DNA of 27,477 nucleotides from a virus, in IMG/VR virus record IMGVR_UViG_3300042923_000450, positions 1 to 27,477 of that record, one strand, 5' to 3'. Made by a program: the position numbers and the translations under genes. Positions 1 to 4,213 of the stretch are shown one piece after another. How positions within the stretch are numbered: the first letter of the stretch is position 1; every line of letters begins with the position of its first letter. The notes under the pieces were generated by a model, which was given only the letters and a program-made list of their open reading frames with translations, searched no databases and was not told the DNA's origin.

Positions 1-859
1 GCACAACGGCGTTTTTAAAGGTCTTGCATCCCATTTCAATATTCATCTCACGCTTGAAGCTTCTCCAGCGTGTTCTCATGCCTGCCGTAGTCATGTGGGA
101 TCCATCACGGTTTTTAAAAACATACTCGTATGGATCAACCTTAAGCGTCCTTAACTCAGGAAGCAAAATATCAGGTATGGGTACCGTTCTTTTGCCAGAT
201 CGACTCTTGGTATCCCCAATGGTATTATCGTGGCGCTTTAATGCGTTTTCGATCTTCAGGTTACCACCTTTTAGATCCAGATGTCTGCCTTGCAGGGCGG
301 CGGTTTCTTGGGGCCGCAGCCCACAATACAGCATCAGCTTGACCCAAAGACCTGCGGGGTGCTTCTCAGCCACTTTTAATATATATGTACGTTCTGTATC
401 CGTAATGGACCGTCGGGTATTATTCTCTGCTCTCGGTATATCCAGATCTTCAGCGGGATTGTTTATGATCAGCTTGTTACGCTGGGCCTTCGTAAATATT
501 TGAACCAGGGTATATCGGATTTTCTTTATATGGTCTCTAGAGTATCCAGCAGCGCTGTTGAGGATTTTGCGGAGATGCAGCGGTCTGACATCAACCAGAC
601 GCATGTTACCAATTGATGGGGTAATATAGTTCTTGATGCGACATTTATAGGCATACAACGTGGCGTCGCCGACATTGGGTTCCACATAAGTCTGCAGCCA
701 CTCATCAGTCCATTTCTTTACTGTCATTCCTTTATTTAAGGTAATTGATCCCTCTTCGAGGGCTTTCTTTTTTTCGGCTACTTTAAGAATTAGCTCTTTT
801 TCTGTCTTTGCTTTTACATCGTACCTCTTACCCTCAAAGGTGAACGTTTCTCTTAGCAT
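1..859 (-). CDS. int: Tyrosine recombinase (phage integrase), C-terminus cut by window edge
   Basis: Site-specific recombinase expected to integrate and excise this prophage. Translating the minus strand from ATG at 859 gives 286 residues with no stop before the window edge. Residues 1-40 resemble an arm-binding region, 45-135 a SAM-like core-binding domain (TVKKWTDEWLQTYVE, then NMRLVDVRPLHLRKIL), and 150 onward the catalytic domain. The first catalytic Arg is in YCGLRPQETAAL (R182), and the beta-hairpin Lys region is in TKSRSGKRTVPIP. The HxxR box and nucleophilic Tyr would lie beyond position 1. An AAGAAAGGAA ribosome site precedes the ATG. It is read away from the early genes, as usual at a prophage end. 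Whether the distal catalytic residues are intact cannot be judged. Confidence 0.93.
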   Translation of the reverse strand, partial: MLRETFTFEGKRYDVKAKTEKELILKVAEKKKALEEGSITLNKGMTVKKWTDEWLQTYVEPNVGDATLYAYKCRIKNYITPSIGNMRLVDVRPLHLRKILNSAAGYSRDHIKKIRYTLVQIFTKAQRNKLIINNPAEDLDIPRAENNTRRSITDTERTYILKVAEKHPAGLWVKLMLYCGLRPQETAALQGRHLDLKGGNLKIENALKRHDNTIGDTKSRSGKRTVPIPDILLPELRTLKVDPYEYVFKNRDGSHMTTAGMRTRWRSFKREMNIEMGCKTFKNAVV

Positions 860-881: not shown

Positions 882-917
882 GGGCATAAAAATGCCCGAG
901 ACTTGATTTTCTCGGGC
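882..917 (-). terminator. Overlapping hairpins upstream of the integrase gene
   Basis: On the minus strand, GCCCGAGA and TCTCGGGC (plus positions 894-901 and 910-917) form an 8-bp stem. They are followed by GGGCATTTTTATGCCC, which gives a T-rich stretch and can itself fold (882-887 with 892-897). The two stems share positions 894-897, so they are mutually exclusive. The first looks like an intrinsic terminator for leftward transcripts coming from the methyltransferase gene. The second lies just before the integrase ribosome site. The roles are inferred from geometry. Confidence 0.55.
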
Positions 918-1012: not shown

Positions 1013-1870
1013 TTATGCTGTACTCTTTTTATCAGTTAAAGAGTCTAAATTATTACTAAATATGGCTAATTCCGTTCCTTTTTTATTTGTCCCAGCACTA
1101 TAATTAATATCAATGATTTCTTGCTTAAATCTGGAATACAGTTCGGACATATCGTCAGTTACATCGTAAGTTACCAGCCATGGACATGCGATATTATTAT
1201 AGATTGACATATATAAATCCACATGGTCTTGATAAGTGAAGAAATTCTGATACAATTCAGGACCTTTTTTCACATAAGGAGGGTCGAGATACACAAAGGT
1301 ATTATCGATATCGTAATTCTTAATATTATTCCTGATAAGGTCAATTGCATCAAGATTCAATACGTCAATCTTATGCCTATATTGGTGTATTAATTTTATT
1401 TTTTCAATTAACACATTGCGATTGAATCTACAATCAATAGGGTATTTTCCATTCTGTTCAAAACCACCAATGACTCCACCATTAATTATCCCAGATCGAT
1501 TTGTTCTGTTTAGGAAAAACGTAGCATAACCGACATCAAAGATATTGTGTTGATACTGATTAACATACACATCTTTATAGTAATGCCATTGATCTAAATC
1601 AACTGATTCATTTTTTATTTTTCGACAAAATTCTTCTGTTTCATTTAAAATACTATACCAAAAGGCATAGATTGCAAAATCAAAATCATTGATAATAATA
1701 TGGTCGACATCTTTATTGATTAGCAGTTTTAGGGCAAGCCCAGATCCCCCGGCAAAGGGTTCGATGTACGTACATCCTTCAAGATTGTTTAATTCAATAA
1801 TTCTTTTTATATAAGGGTAAAGTTTTGTTTTGCCCCCGGGATATCGAAGAGGAGATAAATTATTATTCAA
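1013..1870 (-). CDS. D12-class (Dam-like) N6-adenine DNA methyltransferase
   Basis: Predicted to methylate adenine N6 in DNA using S-adenosylmethionine. It has the D12 family layout: LSPLRYPGGKTKL at the extreme N-terminus, the SAM-binding PFAGGSG motif near residue 40, and catalytic DPPY at about 196-199. At 285 residues it is full length. The frame is open six codons further, to a TTG at 1888. I chose the TTG at 1870 because GTAGGTG lies six bases upstream and the product then starts where family members do. A promoter lies just upstream (1901-1929). The gene follows the ParB-like gene by 64 bp and is visibly more AT-rich than the phage core. No restriction enzyme gene is recognisable nearby, so it may protect phage DNA or serve the ParB-like partner. 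Confidence 0.92.
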   Translation of the reverse strand: MNNNLSPLRYPGGKTKLYPYIKRIIELNNLEGCTYIEPFAGGSGLALKLLINKDVDHIIINDFDFAIYAFWYSILNETEEFCRKIKNESVDLDQWHYYKDVYVNQYQHNIFDVGYATFFLNRTNRSGIINGGVIGGFEQNGKYPIDCRFNRNVLIEKIKLIHQYRHKIDVLNLDAIDLIRNNIKNYDIDNTFVYLDPPYVKKGPELYQNFFTYQDHVDLYMSIYNNIACPWLVTYDVTDDMSELYSRFKQEIIDINYSAGTNKKGTELAIFSNNLDSLTDKKSTA

Positions 1871-1900
1871 AAACACACCTACTTTCAAGTTTATATCTGT

Positions 1901-1929
1901 ATTATAACAATCTTAATAGGCGTTGGCCA
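1901..1929 (-). promoter_or_regulatory. Promoter for the D12 methyltransferase gene
   Basis: On the minus strand, TGGCCA (1929-1924, four of six matches to the -35 consensus) and a perfect TATAAT (1906-1901) are separated by 17 bp. Transcription would begin about 25 bases before the chosen start codon. This would let the methyltransferase be expressed separately from the ParB-like gene. Confidence 0.5.
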
Positions 1930-1934
1930 GTAAA

Positions 1935-3446
1935 TTACTTTTCTAGACATAACCGAATAAACGTTTCAAAATTATCAAAATAATTAATTACTGAATCCGC
2001 GAAAGGGTGAACGTCATCATAATGGACATAACCATTAAAAATCGTTATAGCATGGTTTTTATCAATAAGTTCTAGCATAGATCTCTGTGATTTATCAGTT
2101 AATTCATGCCGTGATCCCATTAGGTTGATAGCATTTTTTAATGTATCTCGTAATTTGTTTTCTTCAATCTTTTCTGCCTTTCCTGTTTTTGTTAAATAAT
2201 ATTTGGCATTCAACTCAAGATAAACTCTTAGCAGAACGGCACATGAATTTGTGAATTTATGAACATTTAGCTCTTTCAATTCTACTGTTATATTATTAAT
2301 CTTACTGGAGGAACAAGTACATCCAAATGCTGAAGGAATAACGGTTGATCTTTTTGATGTAGCACTTTTTTCAATTTTACCCTTGTCACTACTATTATTT
2401 TGAGTATTGTAATTTTGAGTATTCGTTTCTTCGGCGGAGGAAGTATCTTGCCTACGAGTTGTGGATGAGGGATTTGAATTTTGATTGGTCCCTGGGTCGC
2501 CTCGATCTATATCTTCGTTCTCTTGTTTATCTGATTTTAACTCATTAGATTTTTTATTATTTGTAGGCAGCAAGTCTGTTTTTATTAAGTAATCTTTTAA
2601 TCCAGGTACATCTAGATATGTATTTCTTGTATTAAAATCATTTTTATCTACAAAAGCGGCACGGGCAATTAAGTATATGCAGTAATCAAAATGCTCTTTT
2701 TTTATTGTAGTTATTGGATTGAAATACTCATCCTCACTAAGCTGAAGTATTTCCTTTAACGGCGGGAGTTCTTTTTCCTTACTGTTTGCAGAAAAAACTC
2801 TTATAAATCTAGAAATTTTTAAATCCTCTAAATTCAAATAATTCTCCGACTCTTCTTCAGTCCACATCGGGAGCTCCAAAGCATACTTTATTAGCTTATA
2901 TTCCTTAATTCCTCTTTTTATTGTGTTCTTTGCTGAGCCCGTGACATCCATGATTTCCTCAAGCGGTTTTCCCGCTTCGAATTGTATTGCAAAGAATTTT
3001 TGCTTTGCAATCGCAGTCCATTTTTTTATCCCATCTATATGTTTAGAAGCCAGTGCGCTCTGAGCCATTGTACGGCTTGGTAATATATCAACATCCAGCA
3101 CCGATATATTGTCCAATGTTTCCTTGCTTACGTCAAAAGACTTTACGGAAGCTGGCTTTACATTTCCGAGGAGTTGCAAATTTTTTAGAATTTTGCATGC
3201 GCAGACACGACGGTTACCCTCCAAAACAACATATCGGCCATGTTCTTTACAGGCGATTACTCGTTCTCCAGCATAGAAGCCTTTACTTCGATCTATTTTC
3301 ATAGCCAATTTGTCTACGCCTTCATTCATAATAAGATGCCTAATAATATCAGTTTGTTTAGGATTTGGCGGAACAATAAAGCGGGGATTTTCTTCATCTA
3401 AGTATAAATCATCCAAAGGAATACTTTTTGATTCAAATTTAGCCAT
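1935..3446 (-). CDS. ParB/Srx-like nuclease-fold protein with helical C-terminal domain
   Basis: Residues 8-110 resemble the ParB/sulfiredoxin-like domain: SIPLDDLYLDEENPRF at the start, then the signature VVLEGNRRVCACKIL with EGNRR at about 76-80. Proteins with this box include partition proteins, nucleases and defence components. A helical part around 135-190 has an HTH-like stretch (PLEEIMDVTGSAKNTIKRG). A low-complexity Asn/Ser/Thr/Gln linker (about 300-375) follows, then a C-terminal domain of about 110 residues that looks all-helical and may be HEPN-like; that is a guess. I chose ATG 3446, not 3485, because AAGGAGAT lies eight bases upstream. It is AT-rich and precedes the D12 methyltransferase with its own promoter, so the pair looks like an acquired defence or modification cassette. 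No chromosomal parA partner is seen. Confidence 0.75.
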   Translation of the reverse strand: MAKFESKSIPLDDLYLDEENPRFIVPPNPKQTDIIRHLIMNEGVDKLAMKIDRSKGFYAGERVIACKEHGRYVVLEGNRRVCACKILKNLQLLGNVKPASVKSFDVSKETLDNISVLDVDILPSRTMAQSALASKHIDGIKKWTAIAKQKFFAIQFEAGKPLEEIMDVTGSAKNTIKRGIKEYKLIKYALELPMWTEEESENYLNLEDLKISRFIRVFSANSKEKELPPLKEILQLSEDEYFNPITTIKKEHFDYCIYLIARAAFVDKNDFNTRNTYLDVPGLKDYLIKTDLLPTNNKKSNELKSDKQENEDIDRGDPGTNQNSNPSSTTRRQDTSSAEETNTQNYNTQNNSSDKGKIEKSATSKRSTVIPSAFGCTCSSSKINNITVELKELNVHKFTNSCAVLLRVYLELNAKYYLTKTGKAEKIEENKLRDTLKNAINLMGSRHELTDKSQRSMLELIDKNHAITIFNGYVHYDDVHPFADSVINYFDNFETFIRLCLEK

Positions 3447-3464
3447 AATTTCTATCTCCTTTTG

Positions 3465-3517
3465 AAATTTCGAAATTTGCTTCATCTTGATCTAGTCCAG
3501 TACAATAAGCCAGTACA
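3465..3517. promoter_or_regulatory. Palindrome and direct repeats in the ParB-like gene leader
   Basis: AAATTTCGAAATTT (3465-3478) is a perfect 14-bp palindrome just upstream of the ribosome site. CCAGTACA occurs twice in direct orientation (3497-3504 and 3510-3517), next to the expected transcription start. Either could be an operator for autoregulation of the cassette. This is inferred from position only. Confidence 0.35.
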
Positions 3518-3524
3518 TAGTAAA

Positions 3525-3553
3525 ATTATGGTATATATTATCGAATTTTGCAA
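3525..3553 (-). promoter_or_regulatory. Promoter for the ParB-like gene
   Basis: On the minus strand, TTGCAA (3553-3548) and CATAAT (3530-3525, five of six matches) are separated by exactly 17 bp. The leader would be about 70 nucleotides. This separates the accessory cassette from the repressor operon upstream. Confidence 0.5.
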
Positions 3554-3602: not shown

Positions 3603-3830
3603 CTAACCAATATGCCGATGCTTTTCAACCAGATCAACATCAGCCATATTATCATAATCCCCGTTCTCAATATGCCTTATCTCATGATCGTATGTATGAA
3701 TCTGCATTTCACTGCTCAACCGAGCATTAATCATTATCGAATAACTGCCATCCTTATTCTTCTTTGTGAAACCTCGAACCCCATGGGGCAGATCAACAAG
3801 ATGAACTCCAATGTATTCTACATATGTCAT
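3603..3830 (-). CDS. Short ImmA/IrrE-like metallopeptidase
   Basis: ImmA-type proteins are zinc peptidases that can cleave the phage repressor and so trigger induction. This one has the zinc-binding HExxH helix as YDHEIRHIENGDY (H49, E50, H53), preceded by a strand-like SIMINARLS segment. At 75 residues it is much shorter than canonical ImmA and is reduced to the peptidase core; small forms of this kind are common in clostridial prophages. The start codon overlaps the repressor stop by one base (TAATG), so the two are translationally coupled. That places it in the switch operon as the likely anti-repressor. Confidence 0.75.
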   Translation of the reverse strand: MTYVEYIGVHLVDLPHGVRGFTKKNKDGSYSIMINARLSSEMQIHTYDHEIRHIENGDYDNMADVDLVEKHRHIG

Positions 3831-4192
3831 TAATCATCGTCACCACTCATTCGTTTAACCATGTCCTTTATTAACTTCAGATCCTCCGGCTTTACTTTTC
3901 TGGTGGTGTCGAAGAGTATCCGCAGATCAGGGTTATCAAAGATTTCTTGAGCAATCTTTGCTGCTTCTTCATCAAGATAGTAGCCATGCCCATCGACATC
4001 ATTTTCTAATATGAAATCTATTGTAACGCCATAGAAACGGGCGATCTTTCTTAATGTTTCGGAACCAACATCTCTCGTGTCAGTTTCATAATTATTATAA
4101 GTAGTATAGGGCATTCCGAGCTTTTCAGCGGCCTCTCGTTTATTAAAGCCTTTCGCTTCTCTAAGTTCTTTTAATTTTTCTCCGATACTCAT
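3830..4192 (-). CDS. CI-like XRE-family repressor
   Basis: Probable master repressor of lysogeny. Residues 2-60 form an XRE helix-turn-helix (IGEKLKELREAKG, then REAAEKLGMPYTTYNNYE). The C-terminal half (about 65-120) is charged and helical and lacks a LexA/CI-type Ser-Lys autoprotease, which fits control by the ImmA-like protein encoded next in the operon. I chose ATG 4192 (120 residues) because GAGGTG lies six bases upstream; the frame also opens at a GTG at 4201 that overlaps this ribosome site. It is divergent from the Cro-like gene and faces three operator copies in the shared control region. Confidence 0.88.
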   Translation of the reverse strand: MSIGEKLKELREAKGFNKREAAEKLGMPYTTYNNYETDTRDVGSETLRKIARFYGVTIDFILENDVDGHGYYLDEEAAKIAQEIFDNPDLRILFDTTRKVKPEDLKLIKDMVKRMSGDDD

Positions 4193-4213
4193 ACGTTTCA
4201 CCTCTTTATATTG

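Follow-up and report, generated by a model that had tools for sequence, protein, structure and literature searches.

The window analysed here, the whole stretch of 27,477 nucleotides at positions 1 to 27,477 of the IMG/VR virus record IMGVR_UViG_3300042923_000450 (window coordinates are used throughout), contains two adjacent minus-strand genes, here called A and B, which encode a protein with a ParB-like part and a D12-class adenine DNA methyltransferase. Profile matches of both proteins place the pair, as a divergent member, in the known anti-phage system PD-λ-5, an Escherichia coli prophage system which was found by functional selection for phage defence and restricts phages in that bacterium (Vassallo et al., 2022; PMC9519451). 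A first-pass annotation, made from the letters of the DNA, had proposed that these genes form a candidate defence or modification cassette, and this proposal is strongly supported by the match to a system with demonstrated activity against phages in E. coli. The two genes constitute a genuine and well-defined defence module belonging to an already-described system, and by analogy with the E. coli relative it very probably helps the host of the phage, probably a clostridial bacterium, to resist other phages. The earlier interpretation stood in part: the defence cassette and the HEPN-like C-terminus of A were upheld, the separate promoters were not, and the known system had gone unrecognised. 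The interest of the pair lies in a testable mechanism and in the exchange of its partners rather than in its mere presence.

Assignment of both proteins to PD-λ-5

Comparison of protein A with PADLOC gave a best match to PDLC03998 (PD-Lambda-5_A) at 5.3e-50, together with many further PD-Lambda-5_A models. The best-matching stretch is the C-terminal half; other models span the N-terminal half or, as PDLC04013 does (residues 19-515), the entire protein, and the C-terminus alone also matches models of this family. Protein A is matched by phrog_9592 (1e-64) as well, and no family was recognised for it in a Pfam scan. Protein B matched PDLC04018 (PD-Lambda-5_B) at 1.8e-113 over residues 9-287 and is a MethyltransfD12 protein (PF02086, 1.9e-19) carrying both the DPPY and the EPFAGG motifs. 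Among the methyltransferases paired with A, DPPY was present in 68/68 and EP[FY][AC]GG in 63/68. The possibility that B is a Dam orthologue was rejected, as its score of 67.3 bits falls below the TIGR00571 cut-off of 114.85. As the first-pass annotation had stated, no restriction endonuclease is recognisable, neither A nor B matching any endonuclease family in the scans. The profile search that it had recommended for the parts of A was fruitful with PADLOC, while sequence profiles, whether of the whole of A or only of its C-terminus, retrieved no convincing solved relative.

Like PD-λ-5, the window has two adjacent genes, an A gene of about 500 codons and a D12 methyltransferase gene B, located in a prophage accessory slot. 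In E. coli, A occurs with B in prophage contexts, one of which is the P2-like hotspot, and with the A profile of this analysis the pair from that hotspot scored 379 bits. Differences concern the host group, the window being from a Bacillota-type phage, and the slot, which lies between integrase and repressor instead of by the P2 portal gene. Protein A is also only about 20-35% identical to most members, the nearest relative found being 46% identical over its full length (L181/L185). The pair shares with type II restriction-modification systems an adenine methyltransferase adjoining a presumed effector, as well as the logic of self and non-self, but it has no recognisable restriction endonuclease. 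The literature open to checking gave no mechanism for PD-λ-5 itself.

Conservation of the gene pair

Single-protein scans of viral contigs gave few close relatives (one for A and none for B) and, for this reason, relatives were sought with alignments. When viral contigs were scanned with only the methyltransferase as anchor, two groups emerged, 40 enzymes of the clade of B and 40 distant D12 enzymes. In the first group 25/40 adjoin an A-type gene, 14/40 an OLD-like ATPase gene and 1/40 lies at a contig end, whereas 0/40 of the distant enzymes adjoin A (Fisher p 2e-10 for A). A second scan, of bacterial and archaeal genomes, covered 80 methyltransferases of the clade of B; 53 of them adjoin A and 28 an OLD-like gene, seven having both, and six have neither. 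The neighbourhood survey suggested in the first-pass annotation thus revealed a recurrent association, and a pairing unique to this prophage was rejected. In 73/82 pairings both genes share a strand and A comes first, with a median gap of 14 bp. The window's gene order itself (repressor, ImmA-like, A, B, integrase) is shared by one viral contig (L002).

Pairwise identities of A and B co-vary among 68 pairs (r 0.61-0.66, depending on the domain), and none of 500 permutations reached values as high; shared ancestry could also explain this co-variation without direct interaction. Protein A diverges faster than its partner, with a mean identity of 0.19-0.30 by domain, compared with 0.43 for B.

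Partner exchange in the methyltransferase clade

The OLD-like protein found in place of A is an AAA/TOPRIM protein of about 520-600 amino acids (L019, L044, L099, L101, L102 and L193, among others; 34 loci in the set used for the tree). It matches AAA_15/AAA_21 and TOPRIM-like families, and a Walker A motif is present in 32/40 of the OLD-like set. This alternative partner of the B clade resembles in its ATPase and TOPRIM-like end the OLD-family defence proteins (Gabija GajA, Septu PtuA and PARIS AriA), but an OLD-like gene is absent from the window. No PADLOC model of its own was among its best matches, and none of the matches names a pairing with a D12 methyltransferase; an annotation seeking only A and B would miss this partner.

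The partner type, A or OLD-like, was mapped on a tree of 122 methyltransferases of the clade. It changes at least 16 times, six of these changes being forced by well-supported branches, and this number lies below the shuffled expectation (mean 29.9, OLD label). Changes fewer than in the shuffles, yet at least 16, indicate that partners are inherited but repeatedly exchanged. The window's B forms a group (97) with an enzyme from Lacrimispora whose partner is A, and next to them stands a set of ten, half with A and half with OLD. In E. coli, OLD and B were found beside an integrase gene. In Streptococcus phage Javan645 (L193:837-5891) the repressor-to-integrase slot, occupied by A and B in the window, is filled by an OLD-like gene and a methyltransferase gene.

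Both partners may also stand together. The A gene of L181/L185 overlaps its B gene, which is followed on the same strand by an OLD-like gene with a 4-bp overlap. In L185 the three genes of this A-B-OLD operon (L185:3352-7422, minus strand) all overlap, and its A is the closest relative found of the window's A. Operons or arrays at L133, L146, L162 and L126 likewise have one methyltransferase flanked by both A and an OLD-like gene. An OLD-like ATPase is thus a further partner of this methyltransferase clade, at times within one operon with A, which suggests that a shared methyl mark may guard several weapons at once.

This argument from gene neighbourhoods bears on what protein A would read. 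Effectors of very different kinds accompany one and the same mark, which argues, without amounting to proof, that it is the mark on DNA and not the methyltransferase protein that is read. A rival reading is a regulated toxin-antitoxin-like addiction module: methylation by B, or B itself, would silence A, and loss of the prophage or shutdown of B by a phage would free A to kill or arrest the cell, defence being one outcome among others. The MntA-HepT-type HEPN folds, which A resembles in its C-terminus, are toxins, the operon order is A then B with genes often overlapping or coupled, and A is the faster-diverging protein, all of which would suit such a module. Nevertheless, the tie of the same B clade to an unrelated OLD-like ATPase favours a DNA mark over a protein-specific antitoxin, and we regard addiction as improbable.

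Other arrangements were seen around these and related methyltransferases. Two of the six bacterial or archaeal loci with neither A nor OLD (L103:3076-8210 and L109:3050-8271) have an AlbA-like open reading frame (ORF) upstream and a HerA-like ATPase gene downstream of the methyltransferase gene, both named from their sequences. Vibrio phage ValB1MD-2 (L008:3132-4684) encodes the two parts of A separately, in a ParB gene and a HEPN-like gene; B lies alongside, and downstream, on the opposite strand, there is an OLD-like gene. In the P2-like phages Wphi, 12474III and D14A, a short ParB-like gene is accompanied by a cytosine methyltransferase gene and by an ORF whose motif resembles that of Mrr-type nucleases. 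Related but different cassettes, in which a shorter ParB-like protein stands beside a separate ORF, were found with an adenine or cytosine methyltransferase at L045, L050, L117, L138 and L140, and with a cytosine methyltransferase at L003, L005 and L007. Several of these separate ORFs contain a GxDxxAW...QC motif resembling Mrr-type nucleases; considering P2-like and other relatives together, a nuclease-like motif was present in 6/10. That the ParB-like part is accompanied by a separate ORF, HEPN-like at L008 and for a putative nuclease at L003, L005, L007 and L045, is what would be expected of a sensor with exchangeable effectors.

A broader hypothesis, which we put forward only tentatively and hold to be somewhat less probable than its opposite, is that a single D12 clade provides the self mark for several unrelated effectors that repeatedly replace each other or share one methyltransferase. 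These would be the ParB-HEPN protein A, working as a DNA clamp under nucleotide control that triggers an atypical HEPN domain, the OLD-like ATPase-TOPRIM protein, the ParB-like and nuclease-like pair and, rarely, the AlbA-like and HerA-like pair. PD-λ-5 would then be one face of a larger modular family.

Domain architecture of protein A

Protein A was modelled with AlphaFold2 from an alignment of 29 sequences (mean predicted local distance difference test score, pLDDT, 81.5), and the conservation of its residues was counted over 70 relatives. Residue numbers follow the 516-amino-acid ORF; subtracting 13 gives those of the 503-amino-acid protein. The model predicts, in this order, an N-terminal ParB/Srx fold, a helical middle, a disordered stretch and a compact helical C-terminal domain (390-516). 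The low-confidence stretch, at 310-376, corresponds to the disordered linker that had been proposed from the sequence.

The N-terminal part resembles structures of ParB with CTP or CDP (Z 9.4-10.4 over 92-95 residues; Foldseek probability 1.00). The EGNRR box noticed in the first-pass annotation was confirmed at 3221..3207, and its GNRR (G90-N91-R92-R93) is invariant in 70/70 relatives. Other invariant or near-invariant residues in the first part of the protein are N33, R35, H149, W156 and R229. Regarding the middle, KorB (8qa9) aligns with residues 18-308 (Z 9.2) and pNOB8 ParB-N with residues 8-301 (Z 8.5). Protein A therefore appears, on the model, to share with the ParB-CTPase/ParB-Srx superfamily (ParB, Noc, KorB, PadC, sulfiredoxin and DndB) the fold, the G-x-R-R box and a middle like a helix-turn-helix (HTH) region. 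Unlike these proteins it has no PF02195 match, no ParA and no evident ENxxR motif, and it is fused to a HEPN domain. In the PF02195 (ParB) search A was not matched, and only 3/29 relatives gave a marginal match; ParB-N-type and other Pfam matches of A or its relatives (DUF4145, DUF5677, ParB_N and GmrSD_N) were weak. A 2025 survey of ParB-CTPase folds took PF02195 at its cut-off (PMC12704722) and, as A is undetected by this model, the branch to which A belongs may have been overlooked there.

The C-terminal domain of A was also modelled alone, from 67 sequences (pLDDT 92.8). In the structure comparison, ranks 1-24 were all HEPN or HEPN-like (Z 9.5 to 6.0 over 105-116 residues) and the first unrelated fold ranked below them, upholding the HEPN-like character that had been suggested for this end of the protein. 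The leading matches were AF_0298 (Z 9.5) and MntA-HepT (Z 8.6), and the anti-phage RNase AbiV was also among them (Z 6.9); some structures with uninformative titles among these 24 we take to be HEPN proteins. Within this domain E402, R420, E424 and H488 are invariant or nearly so, and the last three are R407, E411 and H475 when numbered from the ATG at 3446. The likeness to the HEPN superfamily (MntA-HepT toxins, AbiV and AF_0298) extends over the whole domain and includes a conserved His and Arg. It differs in lacking the Rx4-6H motif and in its fusion to a ParB-type sensor, which takes the place of a pairing with an MNT antitoxin.

The possibility that A belongs to a partition system was rejected: no ParA-like ORF, defined by the deviant Walker motif KGG[VITAC][GC]K[ST], was found within about 4 kb of A in 90 loci, so the tie to partition genes that the first-pass annotation had named as evidence against its own reading did not appear. 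The same result bears on the idea that the pair has no role in anti-phage defence, with B serving the phage as an anti-restriction methyltransferase and A serving the lysogen as a ParB-like protein for DNA maintenance or regulation. Phages commonly carry orphan ParB-fold proteins and methyltransferases (PMC12704722), and the pair is located in the lysogeny region. Nonetheless, the matched system came from a selection for phage defence, the HEPN domain has no obvious role in partition, no ParA-like ORF accompanies A, and the pair also occurs without obvious phage genes nearby (L185), and hence this explanation seems very unlikely.

Proposed mechanism and its alternatives

The explanation that we favour, with moderate confidence, is that a temperate phage carries A and B as an anti-phage module of the PD-λ-5 type, in which B marks self DNA and A senses unmarked DNA and fires its HEPN domain. 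It draws on the PADLOC matches, the conserved pairing, order and co-variation of the genes, the predicted ParB-CTPase, HTH and HEPN folds and the OLD-like alternative partner of the B clade, which together make such a module reasonably probable. B would methylate adenines in a short DNA motif, so that host and prophage DNA are marked as self. A would patrol DNA with its ParB-type nucleotide-binding and HTH modules, its nucleotide pocket presumably having an altered chemistry. The unmarked DNA of a superinfecting phage may change the conformation or oligomeric state of A, and this change could, through nucleotide gating, license the tethered HEPN domain as the effector. The latter would damage nucleic acid, most likely RNA, stopping phage production at the expense of the infected cell; as regards the target, the HEPN domain points to RNA as much as to DNA. 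PD-λ-5 is widely annotated, and a ParB-CTPase sensor, a linker and a HEPN domain with three near-invariant residues provide directly testable mutants.

Several points weigh against this mechanism. That A reads methylation at all is something we infer, as we do the missing methyl mark as trigger, the nucleotide gating and the HEPN domain as effector. ENxxR is the CTP-hydrolysis motif of ParB, and it is not evident in the model of A: there is no EN pair at the corresponding place, where the structural alignment stops at residue 153 (ParB 130), and H149 would lie near ParB E126, the Glu of the motif, provided that no gap intervenes. Since Z scores of helical bundles can readily arise by chance, the assignment to HEPN depends on the agreement of all 24 top matches; Foldseek placed HepT first for this domain, with E-values of 0.16 or worse. 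In addition, the HEPN RNase motif Rx4-6H is absent, only 1/70 relatives having an Arg 5 to 7 positions before the invariant His, and consequently the domain may lack activity or act in another way. With ENxxR not evident and Rx4-6H missing, A is, as modelled, a protein with both folds and the textbook catalytic motif of neither family.

These features give room to the main rival explanation, restriction proper, in which the ParB/Srx domain of A would nick or cut DNA lacking the mark of B and the HEPN fold would only dimerise or bind nucleic acid. DNase activity has been reported for the ParB/Srx domains of Osa, a ParB-methylase and others (review PMC5512222), and the most strongly conserved residues of the whole of A (GNRR, W156 and H149) are in its ParB part, the HEPN domain being without a canonical catalytic motif. 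On the other hand, R420, E424 and H488 of this domain are likewise near-invariant, and the nuclease-like motif in the separate ORFs beside ParB-like proteins would be superfluous if the ParB part did the cutting. We consider restriction proper unlikely, though less so than addiction.

Genomic context

The features of the region are listed in Table 1. Gene A was listed as an ORF of 516 amino acids (3485..1935), and the ATG at 3446, preceded by an AAAGGAG ribosome-binding site at about 3462-3456, gives 503. Gene B (291 amino acids) has a second TTG at 1870, with a better ribosome-binding site than the listed start, which would give 285. A lies upstream of B, and the 46 bp between them also fit one shared transcript. 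The separate promoters claimed in the first-pass annotation could not be established, since they are consensus matches and the region has 21 promoter-like sites, hardly above the 16.6 expected by chance.

Table 1. Features of the A-B region and its neighbours in the window.
Feature	Position	Strand	Evidence
Gene A, PD-λ-5_A-type, 503 amino acids	1935..3446	-	ORF, ribosome-binding site, PADLOC PD-Lambda-5_A 5e-50, phrog_9592 1e-64
Predicted N-terminal ParB/Srx (ParB-CTPase) fold of A, residues 14-160	3006..3446	-	ParB-CTP/CDP structure matches
EGNRR box of A, counterpart of ParB box II GERR	3207..3221	-	sequence; GNRR 70/70
Predicted helical middle of A, like ParB/KorB DNA-binding HTH region	2571..3014	-	structure comparison
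Predicted disordered linker of A, residues 306-376	2358..2570	-	pLDDT <50 in 310-329 and 332-376
Predicted C-terminal HEPN-fold domain of A, residues 384-516	1938..2336	-	pLDDT 92.8; HEPN structure matches
Near-invariant Arg R420 (R407 from ATG 3446) of HEPN domain	2226..2228	-	0.99 of 70 sequences
Invariant His H488 (H475 from ATG 3446) of HEPN domain	2022..2024	-	70/70 sequences
Gene B, D12-class N6-adenine DNA methyltransferase	1013..1888	-	PF02086 1.9e-19, PD-Lambda-5_B 1.8e-113, DPPY and EPFAGG motifs
Tyrosine-recombinase-type integrase, truncated by window edge	2..859	-	translation; named from sequence
Short ImmA/IrrE-like metallopeptidase (HEIRH)	3603..3830	-	PF06114, 5e-4
CI-like HTH repressor	3830..4201	-	PF01381, 2.8e-15
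Terminator-like hairpin 3' of B	894..917	-	sequence scan
Candidate promoter-like site in A-B gap, TGGCCA-17-TATAAT, extended -10	1901..1929	-	consensus match 10/12
Weak candidate promoter-like site upstream of A, TTGCAA-17-CATAAT	3525..3553	-	consensus match 9/12

When the window was compared with known phage genomes, the sole match was one of 65 bp, in one phage genome. The order of genes is integrase, B, A, ImmA-like metallopeptidase and CI-like repressor, followed by a divergent Cro-like gene, and the ORF list holds no accessory ORF besides A and B between integrase and repressor. The AT-rich character attributed to both genes in this slot was corroborated, with a G+C content of 34% for A, 32% for B and 33% for the island, compared with 46% in the surrounding and downstream DNA, where every 2.47-kb stretch downstream has at least 42%.

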